From positions 1-55,563 of the forward strand of contig PABH01000006.1 in the NCBI GenBank assembly GCA_002702705.1: a stretch of 55,563 nucleotides of DNA, given 5' to 3'. Positions 43,438-55,563 of the stretch are shown piece by piece. A program made the position numbers and the translations under genes. This DNA comes from Anaerolineaceae bacterium (GTDB lineage: Bacteria; Chloroflexota; Anaerolineae; Anaerolineales; Anaerolineaceae). Every line of letters starts with the position of its first letter. The first letter of the stretch is position 1. The notes beneath the pieces were generated by a model, which saw only the letters and a list, made by a program, of their open reading frames with translations, was not told the DNA's origin and did no database searches.

Positions 43438-45222
43438 TCACCTCGAGTCAATTACATCACCGGATGTATTCTGTTGGCAGTCGTTACTTCCAAGGGTAGG
43501 GTTGGTTGTTCCTTCTATATAAATACCGATGTTATTACCAATACATTGGTTATCCTGAATGGTTGGATAAGCCTGATCAAATACACCAATGCCTGCTGAT
43601 CCATTTGCTTCAACAATATTCATTTGCACGATTGCTTCGGATGAACCTTGAATACTAATCCCATGCTCAATATTCCGACTGCATACATTATTAATCAATT
43701 CCCCGTAGTTGGTATCAAATAATACAATTCCCGTCAGTAAATTTGCTTCGATGGTGTTTTGACGAAGTATGACTCGGGCATTATCTTTCAATTTAACGCC
43801 AAAACTCTCGTTCTCTCGCATAAAATTATTAATAGCCGTAACTTGGGATGCATCATACAACGAAATGCCATCTGATTTATTTTGGTCAAAGACATTATCT
43901 GAAATTTCAGCAGAAGCGTTTTTAAAAACAGCCAATCCGGATTCGGTGTTTTTGGTGGAAGTATTCGCGCTTATGGTAACATTTGAATCGTCGGTCAGGA
44001 TGATTCCGCTTAATGTATTTTCATTAAAGCTATTTTGATTAACATCACCAGTTGCTTGATCCCCAAATCGAATGCCAACTTCATTTTTTTCCGCTATTGT
44101 ATTGGTGACAATAACATTTCCAGTATCATAGACGGAAATACCATTAGCGCTATTTAAATAAATGGTATTGTTTTTGATCTCTGCCATTCCTGATCCTGCA
44201 ACGCGAATGCCATTTGATTCATTCTCATAAATCTGATTCTGTTCGATTAACCCTTGGGCTGCATCGATAACACTTATACCGGAACTTTGGTTTTTAAATA
44301 TAAAATTACTTACAGCGGTTAACTGAGCTGTCTCAAATACATCTATTCCGTAGTCTGTGTTCTCGTATACGCTTGATTCTTGAATCGTAAACTTCGAGTT
44401 TCCGATAAGGGAAAAACCATTGTACTGGTTTCCATATGATTCGCTTTGGGTAATGGTACCGCTGCTGTTTTCAAAAAAAGCAGCTCCACTTTGTTGATTA
44501 TTAGCAAACGTATTTTGTATCGCCTCTACATTGGCATTCTCAGAAACAATCAAACCGGACCAACCATTTTCCGAAAATAGATTATTGTTCAATATTCCTT
44601 TTGAATCATCTCCAAATCTTAATCCCCCGCCAGCATTCTGACTGAATTTGCTACCAGAGATCTCTACCACGGCTTGATCATATACAGACAAACCATGCAT
44701 CGAATTCTGATTAAAAAAGCTATCCGTGATCGTTACCTTGGTGGTTCCGGTAATATATAATCCGGCAGCCACAAAATCTTCTTCATCCCCCACTGCTCCG
44801 CTGAATGTACAGTCTTTTATACTTAGGATACCCGAATTAGCCCGAAAAACATCTGTCGGGGTCGTGCTTTGATTTTGAAAAATAATACCTTCTAGTGTCA
44901 GTGTTTCTTCAGGATTTTCATACATAAATCCATAGTCGGATGTGTTGGTAATAATCGTTGTTGAATCAATCATGCCCTTAATCGTTAATCCTTTTAGGAT
45001 ATTAATTGATTCACCAACATAATACGTACCTGGACTGAGTGTAATGGTTGATCCCGAAGCTAATTTTTCAATTGCAATTTGTAGCGTCTCAAAATCACCA
45101 CTACCATCCTCATTTAATACAACCTCCCGCGGCCCGCTGTTGCCTACGGGTAAATTGCACATAGAAAATACAAATAAAAACAATACACCAATCAACAAAC
45201 GACTGCGAGCGGAAATTTTCAT
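43438..45222 (-). CDS. Parallel beta-helix lipoprotein, copy 2
   Basis: A 594-residue lipoprotein (lipobox SMC near residue 22) with a right-handed beta-helix filling almost the whole mature part. The N-terminal REVVLNEDGSGDFETLQIAIE segment is a NosD/pectate-lyase-like start; repeats of about 22 residues follow, each with an N-x-x-x-x-x-x-G-I/A-x turn. It is the same length as its paralogue at 45877 and retains the same order of domains. No catalytic residues stand out; surface binding or glycan handling is likely. ATG 45222 is chosen because GAGGG lies just upstream. It has its own extended -10 promoter behind the terminator that ends the gluconokinase gene. Confidence 0.85.
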   Translation of the reverse strand: MKISARSRLLIGVLFLFVFSMCNLPVGNSGPREVVLNEDGSGDFETLQIAIEKLASGSTITLSPGTYYVGESINILKGLTIKGMIDSTTIITNTSDYGFMYENPEETLTLEGIIFQNQSTTPTDVFRANSGILSIKDCTFSGAVGDEEDFVAAGLYITGTTKVTITDSFFNQNSMHGLSVYDQAVVEISGSKFSQNAGGGLRFGDDSKGILNNNLFSENGWSGLIVSENANVEAIQNTFANNQQSGAAFFENSSGTITQSESYGNQYNGFSLIGNSKFTIQESSVYENTDYGIDVFETAQLTAVSNFIFKNQSSGISVIDAAQGLIEQNQIYENESNGIRVAGSGMAEIKNNTIYLNSANGISVYDTGNVIVTNTIAEKNEVGIRFGDQATGDVNQNSFNENTLSGIILTDDSNVTISANTSTKNTESGLAVFKNASAEISDNVFDQNKSDGISLYDASQVTAINNFMRENESFGVKLKDNARVILRQNTIEANLLTGIVLFDTNYGELINNVCSRNIEHGISIQGSSEAIVQMNIVEANGSAGIGVFDQAYPTIQDNQCIGNNIGIYIEGTTNPTLGSNDCQQNTSGDVIDSR

Positions 45223-45276
45223 CATACCCTCTTTGATATTCAATTATCTTTTTTTCGGAAAAATCTTGATAGATTG

Positions 45277-45285
45277 AGTATAGCA
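45277..45285 (-). promoter_or_regulatory. Extended -10 promoter, beta-helix copy 2
   Basis: Minus strand TGCTATACT, an extended -10 (TGn plus TATACT), followed by CAA; the same element TG(T/C)TATACTCAA precedes the paralogous gene. It lies about 55 bases before ATG 45222, downstream of a terminator. Confidence 0.55.
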
Positions 45286-45290
45286 AAAAT

Positions 45291-45352
45291 TTATTAAAAA
45301 ATCTCCTCCGTCGCCGTCGGGCTTTTATAAAAATACAAGGAGGAGGATTTTG
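45291..45352 (-). terminator. Terminator of gluconokinase unit
   Basis: AAAATC-TCCTCC and GGAGGA-G-GATTTT pair with one bulged base around a 29-base loop; the minus strand then reads TTTTTTAATAAATTTTT. It begins about 20 bases past the stop at 45373. Confidence 0.65.
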
Positions 45353-45372
45353 CAAAATATGATGGTTAACAT

Positions 45373-45870
45373 TTACAAAATAGAACGAATTTCTTTTAGA
45401 ATTTTCTCAGGTTCTTGTTCAATATCCACAATCAAGGCATCCATTGGTTCTTCTAATAAATCGAATTGACTTTGCAGCATATTCGCCTTCATATAATGGC
45501 CTGTTCGATTTTGCATCCGGTTCAAAATCAATTCGTAACTTCCTTTTAAGTACACTGTTTTCACCCCATTATTTCCCGTTAACAACAAAGTACGATAACT
45601 GTTTTTTAATGCGGAACAAGCCAAAATAGGATTTTTGCCATTTTTTATGGATGTTGAAAGCAAATTCTGGAGGTTTTTTAACCACGGCAACCGATCTGAA
45701 TCGTTTAAAGGTATTCCGGATGCCATTTTTTGAATATTTTCAACAGGATGAAAATCATCCGCATCGTAAAATTCCCAATCTAATAACTTAGCAAGACGTT
45801 TACCAATGGTCGTTTTTCCACTACCTGAAACCCCCATTAAGATCAAACCCTTTGTAGCTTTAGAAACCAT
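45373..45870 (-). CDS. gntK: Gluconokinase
   Basis: A 165-residue P-loop kinase of the GntK family that phosphorylates D-gluconate to 6-phosphogluconate for the pentose phosphate or Entner-Doudoroff route. Walker A GVSGSGKT (13-20), the FYDADDFHP substrate segment, the SALKNSYR motif and the NRTGHYMKANMLQSQFDLLEEP stretch are diagnostic. CAGGTG precedes ATG 45870. It starts six bases past the first beta-helix gene, so they are cotranscribed. No gluconate transporter or dehydrogenase is nearby. Confidence 0.93.
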   Translation of the reverse strand: MVSKATKGLILMGVSGSGKTTIGKRLAKLLDWEFYDADDFHPVENIQKMASGIPLNDSDRLPWLKNLQNLLSTSIKNGKNPILACSALKNSYRTLLLTGNNGVKTVYLKGSYELILNRMQNRTGHYMKANMLQSQFDLLEEPMDALIVDIEQEPEKILKEIRSIL

Positions 45871-45876
45871 AACAAA

Positions 45877-47661
45877 TCACCTGTAGTCCAAAATATCTTC
45901 AGTTAGATTATCATGACAATCGTTTCCTAGTAAAACCGGGTTGGATCCCTGATCGATTAATATCCCTGCCTCATTCCCATAACACTGGTTGTTTTGAAGC
46001 GTTGGGGTTGCCTGTTCAAAAACCCCAATTCCAGCACCCTTGTTATCCGAAACAATATTTAATTCCACAATTGGGTTAGATGCCCCTAACAGCCGAATGC
46101 CTAACTCGTCGTTCCCGTAAATCTGATTATTTGAAATTGTTCCTTGGTTTTGGGCATTAAAAACAATACCGGAATAACCATTATTATAAATATTGTTTTG
46201 AATAATATTCGCTTGACTGGCAGCCTGCAGCACAATTCCGCTTACCAGGTTTTGGTGAATCTGGTTATTCACAATCTGCGCTCTTGTATTTTGATCAAGG
46301 CTTATTCCGCTAGTAATATTATGACTAAATGTATTCGCTTCGGCATATACAATCGAATCATCGAAAGCTGCCAAACCGGACTCGCTGTTGTTTTTAGATT
46401 GGTTTTCATTTATGGTAACTTCGGCTGATTCAACAACAATAATTCCACTAATTGCACTCTGTGTAATCTCATTTTGAATCACTTCACCCGTTGCGACATT
46501 TCCAAATCGAATACCGGTTTGGTTCTGATCAAACATATTATTTGAAACGACAGCATAGGCTGAATCAAACACAGAGACCCCATTATAAGTATTGGAAGCA
46601 AATGTATTGTTTTTAATTTCTGCTTGGGCAAATCCGCTCACTTCAATCCCATTAAATTGATTTTGGGAAATTTCATTCTGATTTATCGTAGCTAAACTTT
46701 CGTCTTGAAGGATAATGCCATCTTTCAAATTGTCAAAAATATGATTACCTACCGCAGTTAATTGAGCCTGATTAATCACAACAATTCCCCGATCTTCATT
46801 TAAAGAGATCTGATTCTCTTCCAATGTCACATTTGCCTGGTCAATTACAGAAAAGCCACTGAAGTGATTTCCTGAAGATTCGTTTTGGGAAAGTGTGCCG
46901 CTACTGTTTTCAAAAAATACTGCTCCCGTTTCCTGGTTATTGGCAAACACATTTAACACCCCATCCACATGAGCTGTGTCTGTCACAATCAAACCGGAAT
47001 AACCGTTTTTATGAATCTGGTTATTCGTAAGCGTACCAGAGGATTGATCAAGAAAATGTAATCCACCACCCGCATTTTGGCTAAACTCACTATCAGCTAT
47101 GGTCAGCACCGCGGTCTCATGGGCAGAGATACCGTAATAGAGATTTTCCGTGAATTTACTATTGTTAATGTTAACTTGCGCTGTACCGCCAACAAATAAA
47201 CCGGCGGCAGAAAACTCTTGATCGTCCCCAAACGCTCCAGTAAACGTACAATCTTGTATATTAACAATACCAGCCGTAATCCGAAACACATCTGCATATT
47301 CGCTACCCTGATGTTGGAAAATCACCCCTTCAATTGATAAAGTTTCCACTTCATTCTCAAACAAAAAACCATACAATGCGGCATCTGTTAGAACATAGGT
47401 TTCTTCAGGTATCCCAATTAAAGTTAAACTGGATGAAATAGTGATAGACTGATTTACGTAAAAATTACCTTTGCTGAGATGAATGGTTGACCCAGCGGGA
47501 AGATTGATAATTGCAGACTCGAGAGAATTAAAATCACCACTACCATCTGCATTTAATGTTACATCACGCGGTCCACCCTGATTAACAGGCAAGTTACAAT
47601 TGGTTAATAAAACAATATATAACAAAACCATTATTAATCGAAACTGAATAGAAACTTTCAT
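45877..47661 (-). CDS. Parallel beta-helix lipoprotein, copy 1
   Basis: A 594-residue lipoprotein (lipobox LLTNC near residue 22). The mature part opens with PRDVTLNADGSGDFNSLESA, then shows many ~22-residue beta-helix rungs containing N-x-F/I-x-x-N and SGI/V-type turns. It is clearly the paralogue of the protein encoded at 43438, with aligned termini and equal length. Such proteins are surface lyase-like or adhesin-like; no metal or acid pair that would fix a reaction is recognisable. ATG 47661 follows a GAAGG site. It is cotranscribed with gntK. Confidence 0.85.
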   Translation of the reverse strand: MKVSIQFRLIMVLLYIVLLTNCNLPVNQGGPRDVTLNADGSGDFNSLESAIINLPAGSTIHLSKGNFYVNQSITISSSLTLIGIPEETYVLTDAALYGFLFENEVETLSIEGVIFQHQGSEYADVFRITAGIVNIQDCTFTGAFGDDQEFSAAGLFVGGTAQVNINNSKFTENLYYGISAHETAVLTIADSEFSQNAGGGLHFLDQSSGTLTNNQIHKNGYSGLIVTDTAHVDGVLNVFANNQETGAVFFENSSGTLSQNESSGNHFSGFSVIDQANVTLEENQISLNEDRGIVVINQAQLTAVGNHIFDNLKDGIILQDESLATINQNEISQNQFNGIEVSGFAQAEIKNNTFASNTYNGVSVFDSAYAVVSNNMFDQNQTGIRFGNVATGEVIQNEITQSAISGIIVVESAEVTINENQSKNNSESGLAAFDDSIVYAEANTFSHNITSGISLDQNTRAQIVNNQIHQNLVSGIVLQAASQANIIQNNIYNNGYSGIVFNAQNQGTISNNQIYGNDELGIRLLGASNPIVELNIVSDNKGAGIGVFEQATPTLQNNQCYGNEAGILIDQGSNPVLLGNDCHDNLTEDILDYR

Positions 47662-47708
47662 AAGGACTACCTTCTTGAAGGAATCAAAATAATTTATCCA
47701 TCGATTTG

Positions 47709-47717
47709 AGTATAACA
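47709..47717 (-). promoter_or_regulatory. Extended -10 promoter, beta-helix copy 1
   Basis: Minus strand TGTTATACT, extended -10, followed by CAA, ~48 bases before ATG 47661. Matches the element in front of the paralogue, which suggests that the promoter was duplicated with the gene. Confidence 0.55.
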
Positions 47718-47798
47718 AAATCAATTCAGAAAAAGATACATTTATAGATAGATTGGCCGAACACTTATCGATACAGAATCGCCAGTTGAGAAGAAGCG

Positions 47799-48731
47799 TT
47801 AATTTTTATTTTTTGCAGGACGTAAAGCAAAATAATCGTATTGGTGAGTGATCAATATCAATGCTCCACTTTTTATCTGACCTCGCCGCTGCTCTAACCA
47901 ACCCTGGAATTGATCTGACTCTATAACACCCCTTCTTCCTACACTCTCTTCGAAGAAATCAAGAATACATTCTAAAAAATATGCTTCATCGGATGGGTAC
48001 AATCCCTCATTCGCAAAAACAAACCAGTCCGAAGCCCCCGCCCCTTGAATCAAAAAATTGTATTCTTGCAGCGCAAAAAACAATTTGCGGCCGGTTAAAC
48101 TCCCAGCGCTGGTTAATTCACCCAACCGACGGGCATCCATGCTATTGTGATAAGCCCGCATAATCTGGTAATCCAATATCGGGTCTATTTCAGGTTCCAA
48201 CAGAGTCATTCCATCGAAATTAATGGTACTGTATAACCATCCCCCTGGCTTCAAGCAAGCAAATAATACAGGTAAAGCAGCATCTAATGGCAGTAAATCC
48301 AAAACAGCATGTGTGATAATACCATCCCAAGGTTCAAAATCGAAATCCGGTAATTTGAGTAAATCCCCTTCTAGCAAGTGAACACGAGCTTTTTTGCCAT
48401 CTGTTGATAAAATAAAATGGTCTTTTTCCAGGATGTCCATGTGAATATGATGACAACTGGCATAATCAGAAAAAACAGACAAGACAACTGCCAAATTGTC
48501 TGCTTCAACATCCATTAAAGTATAGTCCACATCAAAGAAAGGTACAGTTTCAAACAAACGTTGGATCATGGTACCAATTCCCCCACCCACTTCTAATATA
48601 CGCTTTCGCCCGGATACTTTTAATTGTTGATTCACATATTGAAATACGTCTTTGTTTAAAGCGCGGTCATCTACCGTTTTTTTTGCCATCAAGTAACGTT
48701 GAAAACCGAATAATTCATGTTGTTTCTTCAT
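47799..48731 (-). CDS. SAM-dependent methyltransferase (pterin-type cluster)
   Basis: A 310-residue class I methyltransferase. Motif I is ILEVGGGIGTMIQRL, motif II DVDYTLMDVEADN and motif IV WDGIITHAVLDLLPL. The C-terminal part (about 200-300) is a substrate cap with no strong relatives known to me. ATG 48731 is the start, overlapping the glycosyltransferase end by 17 bases, with AGGT upstream. It is the last gene of the nine-gene operon, so it may methylate the product of the cluster. Confidence 0.85.
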   Translation of the reverse strand: MKKQHELFGFQRYLMAKKTVDDRALNKDVFQYVNQQLKVSGRKRILEVGGGIGTMIQRLFETVPFFDVDYTLMDVEADNLAVVLSVFSDYASCHHIHMDILEKDHFILSTDGKKARVHLLEGDLLKLPDFDFEPWDGIITHAVLDLLPLDAALPVLFACLKPGGWLYSTINFDGMTLLEPEIDPILDYQIMRAYHNSMDARRLGELTSAGSLTGRKLFFALQEYNFLIQGAGASDWFVFANEGLYPSDEAYFLECILDFFEESVGRRGVIESDQFQGWLEQRRGQIKSGALILITHQYDYFALRPAKNKN

Positions 48732-49809
48732 TTTGATATACCTGTTCGACGATAAATTTGCGTATGGTTTCCCCTGTTTGTTCCCAACTTGGAAACTGGT
48801 CAAATTTTTCCAATGCTGCCTGCCCCATCCGAGCCAACTGAGTACGGTCTTTCATTAAAGTTGCAATATGATTCGCAAGCGCTTGGGGATCTTCCACCGT
48901 CACTAAATATCCATTTATACATTGGTCAATGATCTCAGCGGCTCCACCCGCCTCAGTTGCCATTGGTACTACCCCAAAAGCCATCGCTTCCAGATATACG
49001 ATACCAAAGCCTTCATACAAAGAAGGCACAACCAGGACATGAGTATTTTGGTAGTGGTTTTCAAGGTTTTTGTCTTTGATTTTCCCTAGAAATTGGACCT
49101 GCCCCATTAAACAATACCGTGATACCAATGTCCAAGCCTCATCCACATAGGCTGGATCAACACTTTCATCACCAACGATCTTTAGTGACCAATCACTTGA
49201 TGGCAAAAATGTTAAGGCTCGGATCAGGGTATGGAGGCCTTTACGCGGAATAAGATTACCAACAAACAAAATTTGCAATGGACTCATCTTAGCTCGCTGC
49301 TCAATCTTTTCTGGTGTGGTTTTTACTTCAAATCTTGCCCCAGAGGGATAAGCAACCACACTTGGTTTATCGACCTTGCTCAAACTTTCAACTGCCTTAC
49401 GAGTTGCATGGCTGTTAAAAATAAAACCATCAACAGAGCATAAAAAGCTTTTCTCTAACCAGCGAAAAACCCCAAAAAAAGGGTTTCTTACTGGCTCACT
49501 AGAACGGAGATGATGCACTAAAGCGAAAATTGGATACGTTACTCGTTTTTTAATTTTTCGATTTAACCAAACCAAAGAAAGAAAATTTAACTCATCTTGT
49601 ATCAGAACATCAACCTTCAGATTTATTAATTTATGATAATATTCTGTCTTAAAATTCTGAGCAAAATGATAAACATCATTCATCCAGGGGAAAGAAATTA
49701 TTTCCACTGTATCACCACGGGATTCGAGGTATGATACCAGTTTTCGATCATAAAGATACCCTCCCGAGAGGGTATCCAAACTGCCATATATGAGCAGCCC
49801 TACCCGCAT
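48715..49809 (-). CDS. GT4-family glycosyltransferase
   Basis: A 364-residue GT-B fold enzyme. The N-terminal acceptor domain (MRVGLLIYGSLDTLSGGYLYD, then VLIQDELNFL) is followed by the donor domain with ILFVGNLIPRKGLHTLIRAL and the EGFGIVYLEAMAFGVVPMAT nucleotide-sugar motif. Retaining transfer from a nucleotide sugar is expected. ATG 49809 has AGGA about nine bases upstream; it lies two bases past the stop of the PTPS-like gene. It would glycosylate the pyrimidine/pterin product or a lipid partner. Confidence 0.9.
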   Translation of the reverse strand: MRVGLLIYGSLDTLSGGYLYDRKLVSYLESRGDTVEIISFPWMNDVYHFAQNFKTEYYHKLINLKVDVLIQDELNFLSLVWLNRKIKKRVTYPIFALVHHLRSSEPVRNPFFGVFRWLEKSFLCSVDGFIFNSHATRKAVESLSKVDKPSVVAYPSGARFEVKTTPEKIEQRAKMSPLQILFVGNLIPRKGLHTLIRALTFLPSSDWSLKIVGDESVDPAYVDEAWTLVSRYCLMGQVQFLGKIKDKNLENHYQNTHVLVVPSLYEGFGIVYLEAMAFGVVPMATEAGGAAEIIDQCINGYLVTVEDPQALANHIATLMKDRTQLARMGQAALEKFDQFPSWEQTGETIRKFIVEQVYQNEETT

Positions 49810-49811
49810 AG

Positions 49812-50189
49812 TTAACAATCCTGTTCAAACGCAGCCCAGGCGTCATCATTTTCCCATAACACAACACGCACCTTCTGGATATTCTCCGCTTTAATTTGTC
49901 CTTTAAACCTGTCACAAAGAATTTTCGAAAATCGTTCTAATGAAGGATTGTGGTCCGCAAATTCTGGTAATTCATTTAACAATTTATCCCGATAACGATC
50001 CACTGCGGAGTCCAGCATGGCATTAATTTCTACAATATCCACTAGATAATTATGCTGGTTGAGACTATCACCACTGAGGATTAATTCCAATAAAAATGGA
50101 TGCGCGTGTGGAAAATTTTCATTTCCCCAATCTCCGCCAATCAAAAAATGATTACTGATAAATTTACGCTGAACGCTAACCTGATACAT
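49812..50189 (-). CDS. PTPS/QueD-family protein, Cys replaced by Glu
   Basis: A 125-residue T-fold enzyme. Zinc ligands are H14, H28 and H30 (in FPHAHPF), the catalytic Asp-His pair is D79-H80, and the substrate Glu is E113 in LWENDD. The catalytic cysteine four residues before the first HxH histidine (CxxxHGH in QueD and PTPS) is E24, and HGH is HAH. Replacement of Cys by Glu is the mark of the PTPS-III type, reported to act on dihydroneopterin in place of FolB. ATG 50189 follows GGGAGG. It could make a pterin or act on the pyrimidine made by GTP cyclohydrolase II. Confidence 0.85.
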   Translation of the reverse strand: MYQVSVQRKFISNHFLIGGDWGNENFPHAHPFLLELILSGDSLNQHNYLVDIVEINAMLDSAVDRYRDKLLNELPEFADHNPSLERFSKILCDRFKGQIKAENIQKVRVVLWENDDAWAAFEQDC

Positions 50190-50206: not shown

Positions 50207-51193
50207 TTAATACGTTAATACAACCTGCACACAACTCTCAGGTTGTTGAGCAATAAACTGATATGCTAAAGCGGCATCATCAATAGGAAAATGATGGGTG
50301 ATTAACTGCCTGGGCTTGAGCTGTTTTAGCAGCTGCCATACCACAATCGTACGTCGCGCTTTGTCCCACCGGTTAACCAAAGCTGGACTGATGGAGCTTA
50401 CCTGGCTGGATATTAGTCGCAAGCGTTGGCGATGAAAAGTAGTTCCCAAATCGAGGGAAACGAGTTTGGTGCCAAACCAAGAACCCACAATGATTCGTCC
50501 ATCAAATCCAACAACATTGATGGCTTGCTGTAAGGCTGTAGGTGACCCGGAAATTTCCATAGCAAAATCATATTTTTGGTCGGAAAAAATATCTTTTGGG
50601 AAAACAACCTGATTTAATCCGAGTCTTTGTGCCATTGTTTGTCGGTACGAATGTGGTTCTACTAATGTTAAAGCTGTCAAAGGGAATTGATTTAAAACCA
50701 GTGCAGTTAATAAACCAACAACACCCAAGCCAAATAGCACGCCTCTTTCTCCCAAAACGGGCGCAGCATCCTGAACCAGGTTAACCGCTGTTTCTAAATT
50801 AGCAAAAAATAAAGCATCTTCGAATTCCACTTCATCTGGTATCGGGATTACACCTGCCGGCGGACTCACAAAATAATGTTGGTGTGGTTGAAAAGCAAAA
50901 ACCCGTTTTCCAATCCATGATTCTAAGGATGAATCACCCACCTGAATAACTTCACCTACACAGGCATAACCATACTGCATTGGATATTCAAAATTCTCTT
51001 GTAAGGACGATATGGATTCATCTTGACGCATCTCACTTGGTACTAAACCACGATAAACCAACATCTCAGTACCGGGGCTAATCGCACTGAATTGCACCTG
51101 CACAAGTAGTTCCCCCGCTTTTGGTTGGGATAGTTTTCCTTTTAAAGTGGCCACCTGATAAGGTGCCTCAAAAACAACAAAAGAATTTTTCAT
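50207..51193 (-). CDS. BchC-like MDR dehydrogenase
   Basis: A 328-residue medium-chain dehydrogenase/reductase with the ISPGTEMLVYRG start, YGYACVGEV, and a Rossmann fold with GLGVVGLLTALVL. The usual catalytic zinc ligands (CGxD and GHE) are missing; the SPGTE/YGY pattern is that of BchC-like proteins, which act on bulky ring substrates. It would oxidise or reduce a side chain of the pathway intermediate. Its ATG overlaps the RibD-like gene by ATGA and it precedes the PTPS-like gene by 17 bases. Confidence 0.85.
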   Translation of the reverse strand: MKNSFVVFEAPYQVATLKGKLSQPKAGELLVQVQFSAISPGTEMLVYRGLVPSEMRQDESISSLQENFEYPMQYGYACVGEVIQVGDSSLESWIGKRVFAFQPHQHYFVSPPAGVIPIPDEVEFEDALFFANLETAVNLVQDAAPVLGERGVLFGLGVVGLLTALVLNQFPLTALTLVEPHSYRQTMAQRLGLNQVVFPKDIFSDQKYDFAMEISGSPTALQQAINVVGFDGRIIVGSWFGTKLVSLDLGTTFHRQRLRLISSQVSSISPALVNRWDKARRTIVVWQLLKQLKPRQLITHHFPIDDAALAYQFIAQQPESCVQVVLTY

Positions 51194-51879
51194 AAACGTT
51201 TCCCCGCCAATAAAATGTCTGTTCCTGCTACTTCAAATTGTACATCTATTAAGGGGATATCTGTTAATGGTGGACCAACACCGCCATACCCTCCCAACCA
51301 ACGCGGAGCGATTGTAATAACAGCCAAATCCCACAAATCAGAAACCAAAAAAGATGACAAGATCTTAACTCCACCTTCCACCATTAAAGTTTTTATTCCA
51401 AAAGCGTAAAGTTTCGTGAGCACTTCTTTTAAATTCAAGTTACCATCCTGATCACCACACACCTGTACTTCAACACCTAAAGCTTGCAAAGCAGCTGTCT
51501 TTTCTAGTGGTGCAGCTTCGCTGGTAAAAACGATCAAACCTGAAGTTGATTTAATCACGTTTGCCGTTAATGACAATTTTAATTCGGGATCTACCAATAC
51601 TGGTCGCGGACTCTCACCTACAACCAAACGTACATCCAATTTCGGATCATCTGCCAACACCGTACCAATCCCAACCAGAATGCCATCATGCAATGCACGC
51701 AATTGGTGAGTGAATTTCTTGGATTCTGATCCACTGATCACCGTTGGCTGACCCTGTCGTAGTGTTAAACAACCGTCAATCGATTGGGCATACGCCAGCG
51801 TTACGATTGGATAAAGCCGCGAAATTTCTGAAATTTCGGCTTGTTTCAATCTAACCCAGTGTAAGACGTTTGAATCCAT
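51190..51879 (-). CDS. RibD C-terminal-type reductase
   Basis: A 229-residue NADPH reductase of the DHFR-like RibD C-terminal family. Motifs are YAQSIDGCLTL, RALHDGILVGIGTVLADDP and LMVEGGVKILSSFL, all diagnostic. The cytidine-deaminase-like N-terminal domain of bacterial RibD is absent, so it resembles the fungal/archaeal Rib7-type reductases that act before deamination. It likely reduces the ribosyl chain of the GTP cyclohydrolase II product to the ribityl form. ATG 51879 lies within the 3' end of ribA, a 29-base overlap. Confidence 0.9.
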   Translation of the reverse strand: MDSNVLHWVRLKQAEISEISRLYPIVTLAYAQSIDGCLTLRQGQPTVISGSESKKFTHQLRALHDGILVGIGTVLADDPKLDVRLVVGESPRPVLVDPELKLSLTANVIKSTSGLIVFTSEAAPLEKTAALQALGVEVQVCGDQDGNLNLKEVLTKLYAFGIKTLMVEGGVKILSSFLVSDLWDLAVITIAPRWLGGYGGVGPPLTDIPLIDVQFEVAGTDILLAGKRL

Positions 51880-52513
51880 TTCCGCTCGGTTTCGTTACTG
51901 GTTGTAGTAAGTCTACATTTAACAAATGGTTCATACGAGCCGCTTTTGTAAACAGGTACGCTACATTATCTGGCCGAATTTCCGCATCTGAGTGAATTCT
52001 TTCTGATACTTGAATATCATATTGTTCCAATTGAGATATTTTTTCAGGATTGTTTGTAATAAGACGCACGGATAATACACCCAAATCTTTTAACATGGCG
52101 GCAGCTATACCGTAATCCCGTTCATCCGCTTCGTGACCTAACGCCAGATTGGCGTCCACTGTATCCAAACCGTTATCTTGCAAATTGTAAGCACGTAGTT
52201 TTTCCAACAATCCAATCCCACGTCCTTCCTGCCGTAGGTATAACACCACCCCTTCTCCAACTTCTTCTATTAATCGCATGGCATGCTGCAGCTGTTGCCC
52301 ACAATCGCAACGGTTAGAACCTAACAAATCGCCAGTTAAACATTCTGAATGGACACGCACTAACACATTATCTTTACCAAACACATCCCCTTTTACCAGA
52401 GCTAAATGCTCTTTATTGTCTTTGGGGCCCAGATACAAACACAATTGAAAATCACCATATTCAGTTGGCAGCCGGGTTTCAACATTTTTTTTGATATGAA
52501 TTGGTTTATTCAT
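51851..52513 (-). CDS. ribA: GTP cyclohydrolase II
   Basis: A 220-residue enzyme converting GTP to 2,5-diamino-6-ribosylamino-4(3H)-pyrimidinone 5'-phosphate, formate and diphosphate. Zinc ligands are C58, C69 and C71 (HSECLTGDLLGSNRCDCG), the LRQEGRGIGLLEKL segment binds phosphate, and LRAYNLQDNGLDTVDAN carries the catalytic region. The DHBP synthase domain found in bifunctional RibBA is absent. It is followed by a RibD-type reductase and not by ribE or ribH, so a dedicated route outside riboflavin is likely. It lies 38 bases after the small membrane protein gene. Confidence 0.95.
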   Translation of the reverse strand: MNKPIHIKKNVETRLPTEYGDFQLCLYLGPKDNKEHLALVKGDVFGKDNVLVRVHSECLTGDLLGSNRCDCGQQLQHAMRLIEEVGEGVVLYLRQEGRGIGLLEKLRAYNLQDNGLDTVDANLALGHEADERDYGIAAAMLKDLGVLSVRLITNNPEKISQLEQYDIQVSERIHSDAEIRPDNVAYLFTKAARMNHLLNVDLLQPVTKPSGNGFKRLTLG

Positions 52514-52551: not shown

Positions 52552-52896
52552 TTACTTTTGTGAATCGATCACAAGTAAAAACACCAATAAAATTTCAATT
52601 AACTTATCCACATAACCGATGGTTGTATAGGGTTGACCAAGAAAAACCCATAAAATTATGGTCAACAAAGTGAACCCGATGAACAAGACTCGTATCCACA
52701 TTTTAAATGGCTGTAAAAAATCCCAGGGAAGCAAATATAAAGCAACCAATCCTAAATAGCCAAATCCATTCAGGGTGAACAATAAATCAATTTTTCCCAA
52801 TAGAACATTGAGATAAAAATGGATAAATGCAGTACCCAACGTCAATACCAAAATCATCCATTTTTTCCAACTCCATTCCAATTTCTTTGTATTCAT
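52552..52896 (-). CDS. Small four-helix membrane protein
   Basis: A 114-residue protein with four hydrophobic helices (about 12-32, 37-57, 66-86 and 96-112) and short charged termini. I do not recognise a named family. Its ATG overlaps the stop of the flippase-like gene by ATGA, and the next gene is ribA. It probably serves the membrane side of the cluster. Confidence 0.75.
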   Translation of the reverse strand: MNTKKLEWSWKKWMILVLTLGTAFIHFYLNVLLGKIDLLFTLNGFGYLGLVALYLLPWDFLQPFKMWIRVLFIGFTLLTIILWVFLGQPYTTIGYVDKLIEILLVFLLVIDSQK

Positions 52897-53912
52897 AATT
52901 CTTTTACCTCCAAATTGCGTGGTTTATACCAAAACCAACCGCCCAACATTAATCCAAAAACACCAAACAACACATCACGCAAACGAACGATAACAGCCAG
53001 CCCAATGCCCAAAGCTGCTGGCAAACCCAAAGCCTGCATTACCAATACTTGCCCAGCTTCCAATGCTCCTAATCCACCCGGGATAGGAGTTAAAAATGCC
53101 AACCGGGCCGCACTAATGACGGTAATAACCTCTACCCATGAACCCTGCCAACCCAAAAAAGACATCAGTAATCCATATTCCAGGATCATTAAACCCCATG
53201 TGAAAAAAGCCAGGCCAATCACTTTGAAAAAGATAAGTGGTTTTACACGCATGAAATCACGAATCTGAGATTCTGCTCGGAGGATTATTTCGGACTGGGT
53301 TTTAAAACGCAAGGGAAACCAACGGTTTTGTACATAGGAAATACCTGAAGAAAGAGGTGTTTTTCCGTACCATAATGCCAGTGTGTGGAGAAACGGTAAC
53401 AGTAATATAAACACAAATAAAAAGGCAAAATTGTTAAAACCGAGACTTGTTTTTAAACCGGCCTGAAGCACCACCGCCAAGCCTAAAAATAAGACCGTAA
53501 AATTAACCAACAGATCAATCAAACGATCCAGATATACACTTGCAAGACTGGTTTCGAGTGGCAAACCATCTTGTTTTAATAGACGGATTTGTGCGGGCTC
53601 ACCACCAAATTGAGGTCCCGGCGTAAAATAACTGATGCCAAATGAAACCAACCGATATGCGAACAAACGCTGCCATGAAACCTTTTCTGCCAGGCTATTT
53701 AGGATCAAACCCCAACGTTTACTGAATAAATAAAAAATGACCAGATTTAAAAACAAAATAAATATAATTTCCCACCCACTGAAATTACGAAAAATGGACT
53801 GCATTTCCACCCAATCCGTCTGGCGGAAAGACCAAAGAAGGAGTGGAAATATAATAGCCAGCAAGGTAAGAAAGGCTAAAAGCCGTTTTTTGGTTAACGA
53901 ATTAGCCTTCAT
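52893..53912 (-). CDS. LPG-synthase-TM/UPF0104-type flippase-like protein
   Basis: A 339-residue protein with about eight membrane helices. The conserved FTPGPQFGGEPAQIRLLKQDGLP and SVYLDRLIDLL, and the FLTPIPGGLGALEAGQ motif later, identify the lysylphosphatidylglycerol-synthetase TM family, also found in stand-alone lipid flippases. It lacks the soluble transferase domain. A role in moving the lipid-linked product across the membrane is plausible. ATG 53912 overlaps the end of the phosphatidyltransferase gene by eleven bases. Confidence 0.88.
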   Translation of the reverse strand: MKANSLTKKRLLAFLTLLAIIFPLLLWSFRQTDWVEMQSIFRNFSGWEIIFILFLNLVIFYLFSKRWGLILNSLAEKVSWQRLFAYRLVSFGISYFTPGPQFGGEPAQIRLLKQDGLPLETSLASVYLDRLIDLLVNFTVLFLGLAVVLQAGLKTSLGFNNFAFLFVFILLLPFLHTLALWYGKTPLSSGISYVQNRWFPLRFKTQSEIILRAESQIRDFMRVKPLIFFKVIGLAFFTWGLMILEYGLLMSFLGWQGSWVEVITVISAARLAFLTPIPGGLGALEAGQVLVMQALGLPAALGIGLAVIVRLRDVLFGVFGLMLGGWFWYKPRNLEVKEL

Positions 53913-55032
53913 CCGGTGCTGCTCCGATTCGTTGATAAAGAATAAAGTTTTCCGGCTGCCATATTGAAAAACGCCCGCTGCCAAGCCAAAAAACCATTAA
54001 ACTAAGCAACAGCAAAGCCCATTGCCAGGGATCAAGCGGATTGACACGTAAGGCGAAACCGGCAAATAACATCAAACCTAAGGCAGCAATACGAGCAGCT
54101 GTACCAGTTAAAACTAACAAAATACAGGCAGAAAATAAAATTAACTGAAACAATGGTCTAGTAGGAAAAAGAAGTAATAAGACCAAACCAACCGAAGCTA
54201 AAAGGAAACGTAAAACAAAAACCCAATTTTTGAATTCAACCCAAATGTGACTCTTCTTCTCTGTCGACCAACCGGAAACGGCCAAAAAATCAAGCAAAAA
54301 AAATAGCACAAAGGGGGTCAGAAAAAAATAAGCGCTTATATAGGTGGCTGGTGGGTTAAAAATCGGAAACAGAACAACTGCCAAAAAACCCATTTGTGCC
54401 CCAGCTAACCCCCGCCGAAAACGGCGCAGCGGCAGGTCATATACTGGCAAATGTTTTTGTTTTCGAATCCATATTCCAATTAAGAACAAATAACGTGCCA
54501 ATCCCACCAATAGAAAAACTAAGGGCACTTGACCCATATTTAAGGCGACCAGCGTAGCGATCAATATTCCCAGGCCATCCATATCCATATCCAGTTTTTC
54601 ACCAAGGATACTCGTTGTATGGGTCAACCGTGCGACAGCTCCGTCAATATAATCCAATAGGACGGCTGTCAGATATAATCCAGCTGGTAACCAGGCTAAC
54701 CAATTCTCGAATTTAGGCAGCAGCACAAAACCAGCTAAAAAGGCAAACATTGATCCCCGAATTAACGTGATCCAGTTAGCAGCACCAAAACCATATCGAA
54801 GTGGTTCCTGAGGTTTGGTCCTATTAAACGGTAAAAATTTCCATAACCTACCAAACTGCCAAAATAAAACCGGTGCGCTGGTTAAAAAATAAACCCATAA
54901 TTCCTGTCCAGATAAGGATATTAAAAGACCTAAACCAACCCATACCACGCTGGTTATCAAAACCCATCGCCCCCATTGTTGTTTCAGATGGGTTAAAGAT
55001 TGCGAATCTACCGGAACTATTTCTGTAATCAT
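53902..55032 (-). CDS. CDP-alcohol phosphatidyltransferase
   Basis: A 376-residue integral membrane enzyme with about ten helices. The complete family signature D127-x2-D130-G131-x2-A134-R135-x8-G144-x3-D148-x3-D152 is seen, so metal binding and catalysis should be intact. The family joins a CDP-linked alcohol to a hydroxyl acceptor, usually making a phospholipid. It is longer than PgsA-like members, with an additional C-terminal membrane region (about 220-376). It starts the operon. No ribosome site precedes ATG 55032, but an extended -10 box lies six bases upstream. Confidence 0.93.
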   Translation of the reverse strand: MITEIVPVDSQSLTHLKQQWGRWVLITSVVWVGLGLLISLSGQELWVYFLTSAPVLFWQFGRLWKFLPFNRTKPQEPLRYGFGAANWITLIRGSMFAFLAGFVLLPKFENWLAWLPAGLYLTAVLLDYIDGAVARLTHTTSILGEKLDMDMDGLGILIATLVALNMGQVPLVFLLVGLARYLFLIGIWIRKQKHLPVYDLPLRRFRRGLAGAQMGFLAVVLFPIFNPPATYISAYFFLTPFVLFFLLDFLAVSGWSTEKKSHIWVEFKNWVFVLRFLLASVGLVLLLLFPTRPLFQLILFSACILLVLTGTAARIAALGLMLFAGFALRVNPLDPWQWALLLLSLMVFWLGSGRFSIWQPENFILYQRIGAAPDEG

Positions 55033-55291: not shown

Positions 55292-55314
55292 CCGCTATGC
55301 TAAAAACATAGCGG
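55292..55314 (-). repeat. Hairpin at the tnpB 3' end (RE-like)
   Basis: CCGCTATG (55292-55299) and CATAGCGG (55307-55314) form an eight-base stem with a seven-base loop, overlapping the TnpB stop codon. Subterminal hairpins mark the right ends of IS200/IS605 elements, where TnpA recognises DNA and from which the guide RNA scaffold is read. A TTCAC at 55288-55284 (minus) may mark the end. Confidence 0.5.
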
Positions 55315-55563
55315 CTTCCGGTTTCAGCGAGGACTGCCAGCTTTTCAAGGCTGGTCTTACATCCTCTCCACCAGCGTAAGTTTGGGCGATTCCCGCCCTA
55401 CTTCGAGCCAAATTTTCGAGGTTAATTGCCGCGTTAAAATCGCGATCGTGGTGTACGCCACAAACAGGGCAGTCCCATTCACGCACACTGAGTTTGAGTT
55501 CCGGCAAAACATGATTGCAGTGCGAGCATGTCCGACTTGACGGGAAAAATCGGTCAACGACAA
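55295..55563 (-). CDS. TnpB (IS200/IS605) C-terminal fragment, edge-truncated
   Basis: About 89 codons are visible; the gene runs off the right edge, so the N-terminal RuvC parts are not seen. The reading frame gives VVDRFFPSSRTCSHC, then REWDCPVCGVHHDRDFNAAINL, the TnpB zinc ribbon (two CxxC pairs) and the last RuvC aspartate in HDRDxNAA. TnpB is an RNA-guided nuclease that promotes element retention. Whether it is intact or a decayed remnant cannot be judged. No tnpA is in the window. Confidence 0.88.
   Translation of the reverse strand, partial: VVDRFFPSSRTCSHCNHVLPELKLSVREWDCPVCGVHHDRDFNAAINLENLARSRAGIAQTYAGGEDVRPALKSWQSSLKPEAAMFLA

Follow-up and report, generated by a model that had tools for sequence, protein, structure and literature searches.

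A PTPS-fold protein with glutamate at the catalytic cysteine position, encoded in a gene cluster with GTP cyclohydrolase II in Chloroflexota and other prokaryotes

The gene cluster in the window

The window, by which we mean the whole analysed stretch of 55,563 nucleotides from an Anaerolineaceae bacterium, carries nine consecutive minus-strand genes, running from a CDP-alcohol phosphatidyltransferase (55032) to a methyltransferase (47799) in the order CDP-alcohol transferase, flippase-like protein, small membrane-type protein, GTP cyclohydrolase II, RibD C-terminal reductase (RibD_C), MDR-type dehydrogenase, PTPS-like protein, GT4 glycosyltransferase and methyltransferase. The PTPS-like gene occupies 50189-49812 of the minus strand as a clean frame translating into 125 aa, with GGGAGG directly 5' of its ATG; the plus strand across 49812-50189 contains many stops. 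Its product scores 78.3 bits against Pfam PF01242 (cut-off 22.4), and its predicted structure (pLDDT 94.4, pTM 0.87) has the PTPS fold, which matches PTPS/QueD structures with Z of 10.5-18.7. The PTPS homologue recognised by the initial annotation is thus a real gene, and the above-cut-off PF01242 match together with the tunnelling fold places its product in the PTPS/QueD superfamily (COG0720). The closest solved fold is that of SCO6650 (PDB 3d7j; Foldseek 1.1e-10; VIA Z 18.7, rmsd 1.9 over 125), which is also the top solved sequence match of the protein's profile (4.8e-16), with QueD structures behind it at Z of about 16. The gene is the sole PTPS-family match in its own genome.

The CDP-alcohol phosphatidyltransferase (53902-55032; PF01066, 52.8 bits) belongs to a set of 20 sequences in which D127, D130, G131, A134, R135, G144, D148 and D152 are near-invariant. 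It is followed by an LPG_synthase_TM or flippase-like membrane protein (52893-53984; PF03706, 136.2 bits; TIGR00374 above cut-off), by a small membrane-type protein (52552-52896) that matches DUF7475 below its cut-off, and by GTP cyclohydrolase II (51851-52513; PF00925, 240.1 bits; TIGR00505 above cut-off), which in alignment keeps Cys58, Cys69, Cys71 and Tyr109, the counterpart of Tyr105 in E. coli. In RibD_C (51190-51879) PF01872, at 130.7 bits, is the only family found, the Pfam search giving no deaminase domain, and the nearest solved proteins are riboflavin-pathway reductases.

The dehydrogenase (50207-51193) resembles BchC and threonine and sorbitol dehydrogenases: the Pfam ADH models lie just below their cut-offs, BchC is the best NCBI model with 87.8 bits, also below cut-off, and the solved relatives include threonine and butanediol and then sorbitol, xylitol and galactitol-1-phosphate dehydrogenases. 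Throughout this protein and 104 relatives Ser36, Ser39 and Tyr76 are near-invariant and no conserved zinc-ligand cysteine pattern was found, which makes the reaction uncertain; judging by these residues, the name 'zinc-binding alcohol dehydrogenase' given to the family in plasmid annotation is probably misleading. The GT4 glycosyltransferase (48715-49818, with an alternative ATG start at 49809; PF00534, 128.9 bits) matches UDP-glucose:tetrahydrobiopterin glucosyltransferase (5ze7) at 1.3e-6, below many other GT4s. The class I SAM methyltransferase (47799-48803, with a probable start at 48731 by alignment) stays below the Pfam cut-off and is modelled with a methyltransferase fold at pLDDT 93.2. 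The matches for both proteins are to GT4 glycosyltransferases and class I methyltransferases of the usual kind and do not reveal the substrates; a search with Pfam and NCBI models detected no queuosine genes among the nine of the cluster.

On the methyltransferase side of the cluster, in the region 43438-47724, a gluconokinase (45373-45870; TIGR01313 above cut-off) stands between two long proteins that are rich in repeats (601 and 615 aa; candidate NosD-like). On the other side, the minus strand at 55295-55561 carries an open-ended frame that runs off the end of the window and encodes a CxxC...CxxC zinc ribbon, presumably of the kind typical of TnpB-like transposon proteins.

Active-site residues

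Residues were compared in a MAFFT alignment of 132 sequences, 98 of which, the window's included, make up what we call the Glu24 clade; many of these 98 are from Chloroflexota and hence not independent. Sequences below 100 or above 300 aa, the distant L198, L199 and L203, and rows with identical last 115 residues were excluded. A profile-profile alignment against 11 PTPS-I/III proteins, used as a second method, agrees with MAFFT, and the residue equivalences below are based on both the sequence and the profile alignments. The label PTPS-IV covers 17 sequences: three contain FGPAQ, and the other 14, from Chloroflexota, have FGxA and for the most part lack the exact FGPAQ. Motifs described in the literature are CxxxHGH for PTPS-I, CxxxxxHGH for PTPS-II and ExxHGH for PTPS-III (PMC5041015), and FGPAQ for PTPS-IV (PMC5445326).

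The column of the catalytic cysteine holds Cys in 11/11 PTPS-I/III proteins, Ala in 17/17 labelled PTPS-IV sequences, and Glu24 (codon 50118-50120) in 98/98 clade members and 6/6 haloarchaeal proteins. Both alignment methods agree on this, and the initial annotation was therefore right to see glutamate in place of the catalytic cysteine. The equivalence depends on gap placement; the spacing of His14 and His28 differs by one residue, an insertion, from that in PTPS-I/III, both methods set the gap before Glu24, and the WGP/FGP common to the clade and PTPS-IV agrees with it. Where PTPS-IV has its FGPAQ signature the window's protein reads W-G-N-E-N, with Glu in 98/98 at the place of the Ala.

The HAH noted in place of HGH (H28-A29-H30, 50100-50108) is correct for the window's copy and fails as a rule for the clade, in which it is in the minority: column 29 holds Ser in 81/98, Ala in 17/98 and Gly in 0/98, and HGH occurs in 0/98. 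Similarly, the zinc ligands H14, H28 and H30 and E113, described as kept, are all present in this copy, and across the clade His30 is invariant (98/98) and the ring-anchoring Glu113 is found in 97/98, but column 28 is divided between His (49/98) and Asn (49/98), so that the first of the two HxH histidines varies.

Two further readings of the site have to be given up. The D79-H80 pair, taken earlier for the conserved dyad, is a chance pair in a variable loop, with Asp in 5/98 and His in 2/98 (window included), column 79 being Gly in 89/98 and column 80 Leu in 81/98. The columns with Asp-His in 11/11 PTPS-I/III proteins correspond to R67-D68 of the window's protein, where the clade has Arg/Lys (90/98) and Asp/Glu (97/98), and neither CxxxHGH nor the Asp-His dyad of QueD/PTPS-I is present. 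The proposed PTPS-III pattern, ExxHGH, needs Glu three residues before the first His, and position 25 is Asn in 97/98, Ser in 1/98 and Glu in 0/98 of the clade, against Glu in 10/11 PTPS-I/III proteins; Glu24 stands one residue before the Glu of ExxHGH, which leaves the likeness to PTPS-III off by one.

Invariant in 98/98 are H14, E24, H30, H46, Y48, D51 and N72; the six haloarchaeal proteins keep, of His46 and Tyr48, only Tyr48. The active site predicted from these alignments is different from those of the known PTPS/QueD enzymes, and with the His28/Asn28 split and the loss of Asp-His the known PTPS mechanisms would not be simply transferable.

Placement in the family

A tree of COG0720, suggested with the initial annotation, was built from 55 sequences chosen to span the groups. 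It separates the clade from PTPS-I/III, without any clustering with QueD, and joins the clade and the haloarchaeal proteins with 100/100 support. A branch with 90/74 places the clade on the PTPS-IV side, apart from PTPS-I/III, in a tree that is unrooted (midpoint only) and on a stem that is long (1.9), so that the siding of the clade with PTPS-IV rather than PTPS-I/III, as drawn from these sequences, has modest support. The genomes G081 and G177 contain a PTPS-I/III paralogue alongside the clade protein. The closest partner of the window's protein in the tree is that of L070 (99/90, 58% identity); this locus and L112 come from bins titled Treponema that carry the cluster, and such bin names are perhaps unreliable.

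SCO6650 of Streptomyces coelicolor, a protein of the PTPS-IV type, is the best match in both sequence and fold, though at only about 25% identity. Its relatives on Streptomyces plasmids share the ADH-PTPS-GT4-methyltransferase arrangement and have CDP-alcohol phosphatidyltransferase and RibA nearby. The plasmids of Streptomyces and Thiodictyon carry the PTPS-IV version, and three such sequences have, unlike the clade, Ala at the Glu24 and His30 positions.

Gene neighbourhoods of relatives

A single scan of 84,980 species genomes yielded 534 stretches that match, and the best 80 were examined as loci. These best 80 of 534 are mostly from Chloroflexota, the others being from Gammaproteobacteria, Deltaproteobacteria-type and Syntrophobacterales bins, two Treponema-titled bins and Cohnella. 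Carriers with a cultured strain given in their records include Methylomonas koyamae R-45383 and Cohnella silvisoli NL03-T5. Neighbours were counted in the 76 loci above 4 kb, the four of 80 shorter than 4000 bases being excluded. Among these 76, drawn from the best 80 of 534, the dehydrogenase (ADH) is found in 69, GT4 in 73 (on the PTPS strand in 66/73), RibD_C in 34, methyltransferase in 32, cyclohydrolase II and the flippase-like gene in 25 each and CDP-alcohol transferase in 13, while of the 11 PTPS-I/III loci one has GT4 and none has any of the other six. A further 29 clade loci, partly from the same genomes, contain ADH in 25, GT4 in 24, methyltransferase in 9, cyclohydrolase II in 7 and RibD_C in 6. 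Cyclohydrolase II, RibD_C, ADH, PTPS and GT4 occur all together in 23 loci; RibD_C is absent from 42/76 and cyclohydrolase II from 51/76 of the retrieved stretches, some of which are short. Three of the genomes concerned (G005, G018, G028) have the cyclohydrolase II/RibD_C pair elsewhere, and their RibD_C, 28-29% identical to the window's, could by this measure be of another type.

L214 and L217 repeat the gene order of the window except for the small membrane protein; L208 does likewise, with no methyltransferase detected. At L208 one open frame joins flippase and cyclohydrolase II, with an internal start likely. A single open frame holds both cyclohydrolase II and RibD_C in six loci (L050, L052, L070, L097, L112, L125). 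Of 17 loci with both PTPS and a member of the 2-phosphosulfolactate phosphatase family, 15 have the latter immediately upstream of the former; this is 15/80 loci, at 602-759 bases start to start, with PF04029 found for the one member tested.

Beyond these, haloarchaeal plasmid regions show ADH-PTPS-GT4-methyltransferase in 4/6 cases (one with an opposite-strand gene between) and no adjacent GT4 in the other 2/6, and relatives of the CDP-alcohol transferase are found near 3/6 haloarchaeal and 3/3 Streptomyces/Thiodictyon loci. In Haloarcula sp. GH36 the place beside ADH and PTPS is taken by GTP cyclohydrolase III, an unrelated protein. The Tyr105 position of cyclohydrolase II is Tyr in 40/43, Met in two Streptomyces loci and Ser in one. 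Streptomyces SCO6655, with Met for Tyr105, reportedly stops the reaction at the formylated pyrimidine. Two Streptomyces loci and one Haloarcula locus have a creatininase-family neighbour, which is best described as MftE-like and weakly as ArfB, all matches being below cut-off; a creatininase-family enzyme has been shown to deformylate AFRPP, the product of the partial cyclohydrolase reaction (PMC9478397).

Co-occurrence across genomes

In 41 genomes of the order, 20 carriers of the PTPS-like gene and 21 non-carriers, cyclohydrolase II is present in 20/20 carriers and 5/21 non-carriers (Fisher p 2.4e-7), and RibD_C of at least 100 bits, a threshold chosen after seeing the list, in 20/20 and 4/21 (p 4.7e-8); the carriers are related and the p values overstate independence. 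A family search of the same 41 genomes found lumazine synthase missing in 16/20 carriers, one RibH match (G424) below the family cut-off being counted as present, and of the 34 genomes that lack this synthase, 16/16 carriers and 2/18 non-carriers have cyclohydrolase II. With lumazine synthase missing, cyclohydrolase II and RibD_C would not serve riboflavin in those 16 carriers, and riboflavin supply was accordingly rejected as the role of the cluster in most carriers. Some of the strong RibD_C matches are in genomes that also make riboflavin.

Discussion

According to our analysis, the cluster seems to turn GTP into a compound that is probably decorated with sugar. Cyclohydrolase II yields 2,5-diamino-6-ribosylamino-4-pyrimidinone 5'-phosphate, and the reductase converts this into the ribityl form. 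Three lines point to the former, 2,5-diamino-6-ribosylamino-pyrimidinone phosphate, as the precursor: the co-occurrence with cyclohydrolase II and RibD_C, the fused cyclohydrolase II-RibD_C frames, and the replacement of the enzyme by cyclohydrolase III or by the Met variant, the unrelated GTP cyclohydrolase III in the haloarchaeal cluster suggesting a single precursor in common. The neighbours and the co-occurrence lend good support to the suggestion of the initial annotation that the pathway starts from the cyclohydrolase II product, and we infer a pathway that begins with a diaminopyrimidine and is distinct from those of folate, riboflavin and queuosine. On the whole, what that annotation observed at the locus is partly confirmed, and what it made of it is partly supported.

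We tentatively favour, as possible and short of probable, the proposal that the PTPS-like protein is a tunnelling-fold enzyme of a GTP-derived route via dihydroneopterin phosphate, whose product is glycosylated. The dehydrogenase would oxidise C2' of the ribityl chain, as polyol dehydrogenases and BchC do with secondary alcohols, to the same ketone that arises in the cyclohydrolase I reaction through Amadori rearrangement; ketone and 5-amino group could then condense to 7,8-dihydroneopterin 3'-phosphate without any GTP cyclohydrolase I. The PTPS-like enzyme would anchor the ring via Glu113, the side chain would perhaps be held on a metal bound by His14, His30 and His/Asn28, and Glu24, with Asp/Glu68 replacing the usual His, would cleave or rearrange it, after which GT4 may glycosylate and the methyltransferase methylate the product. 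The phosphatase-family gene upstream of PTPS would be in keeping with a phosphate ester at the step of this enzyme.

The CDP-alcohol transferase keeps the residues of its family, which makes a phospholipid-linked form conceivable, the least supported part of the proposal. An extended version, which we consider doubtful, takes the cluster for a cyclohydrolase I-independent pterin route to a glycosylated, methylated and membrane-anchored glycopterin of bacteria and haloarchaea. Cyclohydrolase II (or cyclohydrolase III with a deformylase), the reductase and the dehydrogenase would replace the Amadori step, and where CDP-alcohol transferase and flippase-like genes occur the pterin would be joined to phospholipid and moved across the membrane.

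It would be conceivable, if on balance unlikely, that no pterin is formed and that the enzyme acts on a 2,5-diamino-pyrimidine with a ribityl or oxidised chain by cleavage, epimerisation or some other ring closure, GT4 and methyltransferase then decorating the pyrimidine. All the linked precursors (cyclohydrolase II or III, RibD_C) are indeed diaminopyrimidines, and the loss of the Cys and Asp-His of the pterin-converting members is what a changed substrate would lead one to expect; the retention of Glu113 in nearly the whole clade, a fold closest to pterin enzymes, and a reduce-then-oxidise pair of neighbours that suits closure to a pterin speak for the dihydroneopterin route instead. The absence of the known catalytic residues could also mean that the fold is non-enzymatic or moonlighting, a binding protein for a pterin-like ligand, which is highly improbable in view of the seven invariant residues, since these argue for a new active site. 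Nor can a place in F420 (deazaflavin) synthesis be given much weight. The ribityl-pyrimidine from which the deazaflavin is made also arises from the RibA/RibD branch, so that RibA and RibD_C neighbours would suit such a role, and an F420-dependent oxidoreductase is annotated close by in one Streptomyces region, but deazaflavin is built from the deaminated uracil form, the window's RibD_C is without a deaminase domain, GT4 and methyltransferase would be unexpected, and the annotated neighbours on the plasmids include none named for F420 synthesis. A role of PTPS-IV in F420 is stated as unpublished work in PMC5041015; for the Glu24 clade it is less likely than for PTPS-IV, and we regard it as very unlikely.

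The initial annotation took the protein for a PTPS-III that replaces dihydroneopterin aldolase, that is, an enzyme that makes 6-hydroxymethyl-7,8-dihydropterin for folate and bypasses FolB. Glu does mark PTPS-III (PMC5041015), the folds are alike (1y13 Z 14.4, 2a0s Z 14.7), and both lack Cys and have Glu near HxH; in the clade, however, this Glu stands one residue earlier, HGH and Asp-His are absent and the gene context is another. In the own genome HPPK adjoins DHPS (G000:C22:175341-176691), and no FolE, FolE2, FolB or second PTPS was detected in this assembly of 96.8% completeness, which makes the cluster the only candidate seen there for a way from GTP to a pterin and leaves a folate role conceivable in this one genome. 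That gap may reflect folate salvage, an assembly gap or another pterin source: HPPK is likewise accompanied by no FolE, FolE2 or FolB in the non-carrier G176, a single contig with 99% completeness, and since FolE, an HPPK and FolB lie together in G104, a single gap could explain their absence from an assembly of this completeness. FolB is equally common in carriers (13/20) and non-carriers (14/21; p = 1), FolE is present in 16/20 carriers, and on motif and FolB distribution PTPS-III membership was rejected, the folate function being improbable. QueD, the 6-carboxytetrahydropterin synthase of queuosine as which haloarchaeal and Streptomyces relatives are annotated, has in its favour the database names and a common fold, with the ring-anchoring Glu and the first and third His shared with PTPS-I/III; against it stand Cys replaced by Glu, Asp-His replaced by Arg/Lys-Asp/Glu, the one-residue insertion, other neighbours, a QueD model score of 37.3 bits (cut-off 89.25), the separate clade and the additional PTPS-I/III paralogues of G081 and G177. 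The QueC model PF06508 has matches in 35/41 genomes, 29 above its low 22-bit cut-off and the best at 37.1 bits, most of them spanning about 60 of 210 positions (the four of the own genome 49-75, at most 27.6 bits), and we judge these weak and mostly partial matches to be other PP-loop proteins. QueD identity was rejected as hardly credible, and the initial annotation was justified in excluding queuosine by the lost Cys and Asp-His, the separate clade and neighbours that are not que genes.

Relation to known systems

The link of PTPS-IV with RibA and RibD is already published: cluster-node 62 of the 2017 AGeNNT study, a PTPS-IV group, has PF00925 and PF01872 neighbours (PMC5445326), as does the window together with part of the related loci. 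The description of that node assigns no reaction and calls PF00925 a folate enzyme (PMC5445326). Compared by description, node 62 has preferentially FGPAQ and the clade WGxEN, and the account of the node is without dehydrogenase, GT4, methyltransferase, CDP-alcohol transferase, replacement by cyclohydrolase III or missing riboflavin genes (PMC5445326). In the open-licence PMC literature searched we found nothing on such a cluster beyond PMC5445326 and PMC5041015, and there the Glu24 clade, the wider gene set, the cyclohydrolase III replacement, the independence of lumazine synthase and the end product, perhaps glycosylated and lipid-linked, were not met with; a 2026 pterin review searched for PTPS and cyclohydrolase II gave no match for either (PMC13259868).

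The early steps of riboflavin synthesis (cyclohydrolase II, or cyclohydrolase III with ArfB/BrbF, followed by a reductase) resemble the cluster in the cyclohydrolases, RibD_C and some creatininase neighbours, and differ from it in the deaminase domain that the window's RibD_C lacks and in the lumazine synthase missing from most carriers, in which riboflavin would then not be the product. For the glycosylated pterin that we tentatively favour a possible parallel is cyanopterin, the 4-O-methylglucuronyl-galactoside of 6-hydroxymethylpterin (PMC3546692), a GTP-derived, glycosylated and methyl-bearing pterin that would fit GT4 and methyltransferase; unlike the route proposed here, the review names GTP cyclohydrolase I for it (PMC3546692).

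Proteins of COG0720 are commonly named QueD or PTPS, and the plasmid relatives are annotated as 6-carboxytetrahydropterin synthase, a name that, going by the different active site and the consistent gene set, is probably wrong for the clade. The neighbours give a concrete pathway from GTP and, if a pterin forms, a way to it that dispenses with GTP cyclohydrolase I. The clade itself is common, with its 534 matching stretches in one scan, and extends across several bacterial phyla and the haloarchaea.
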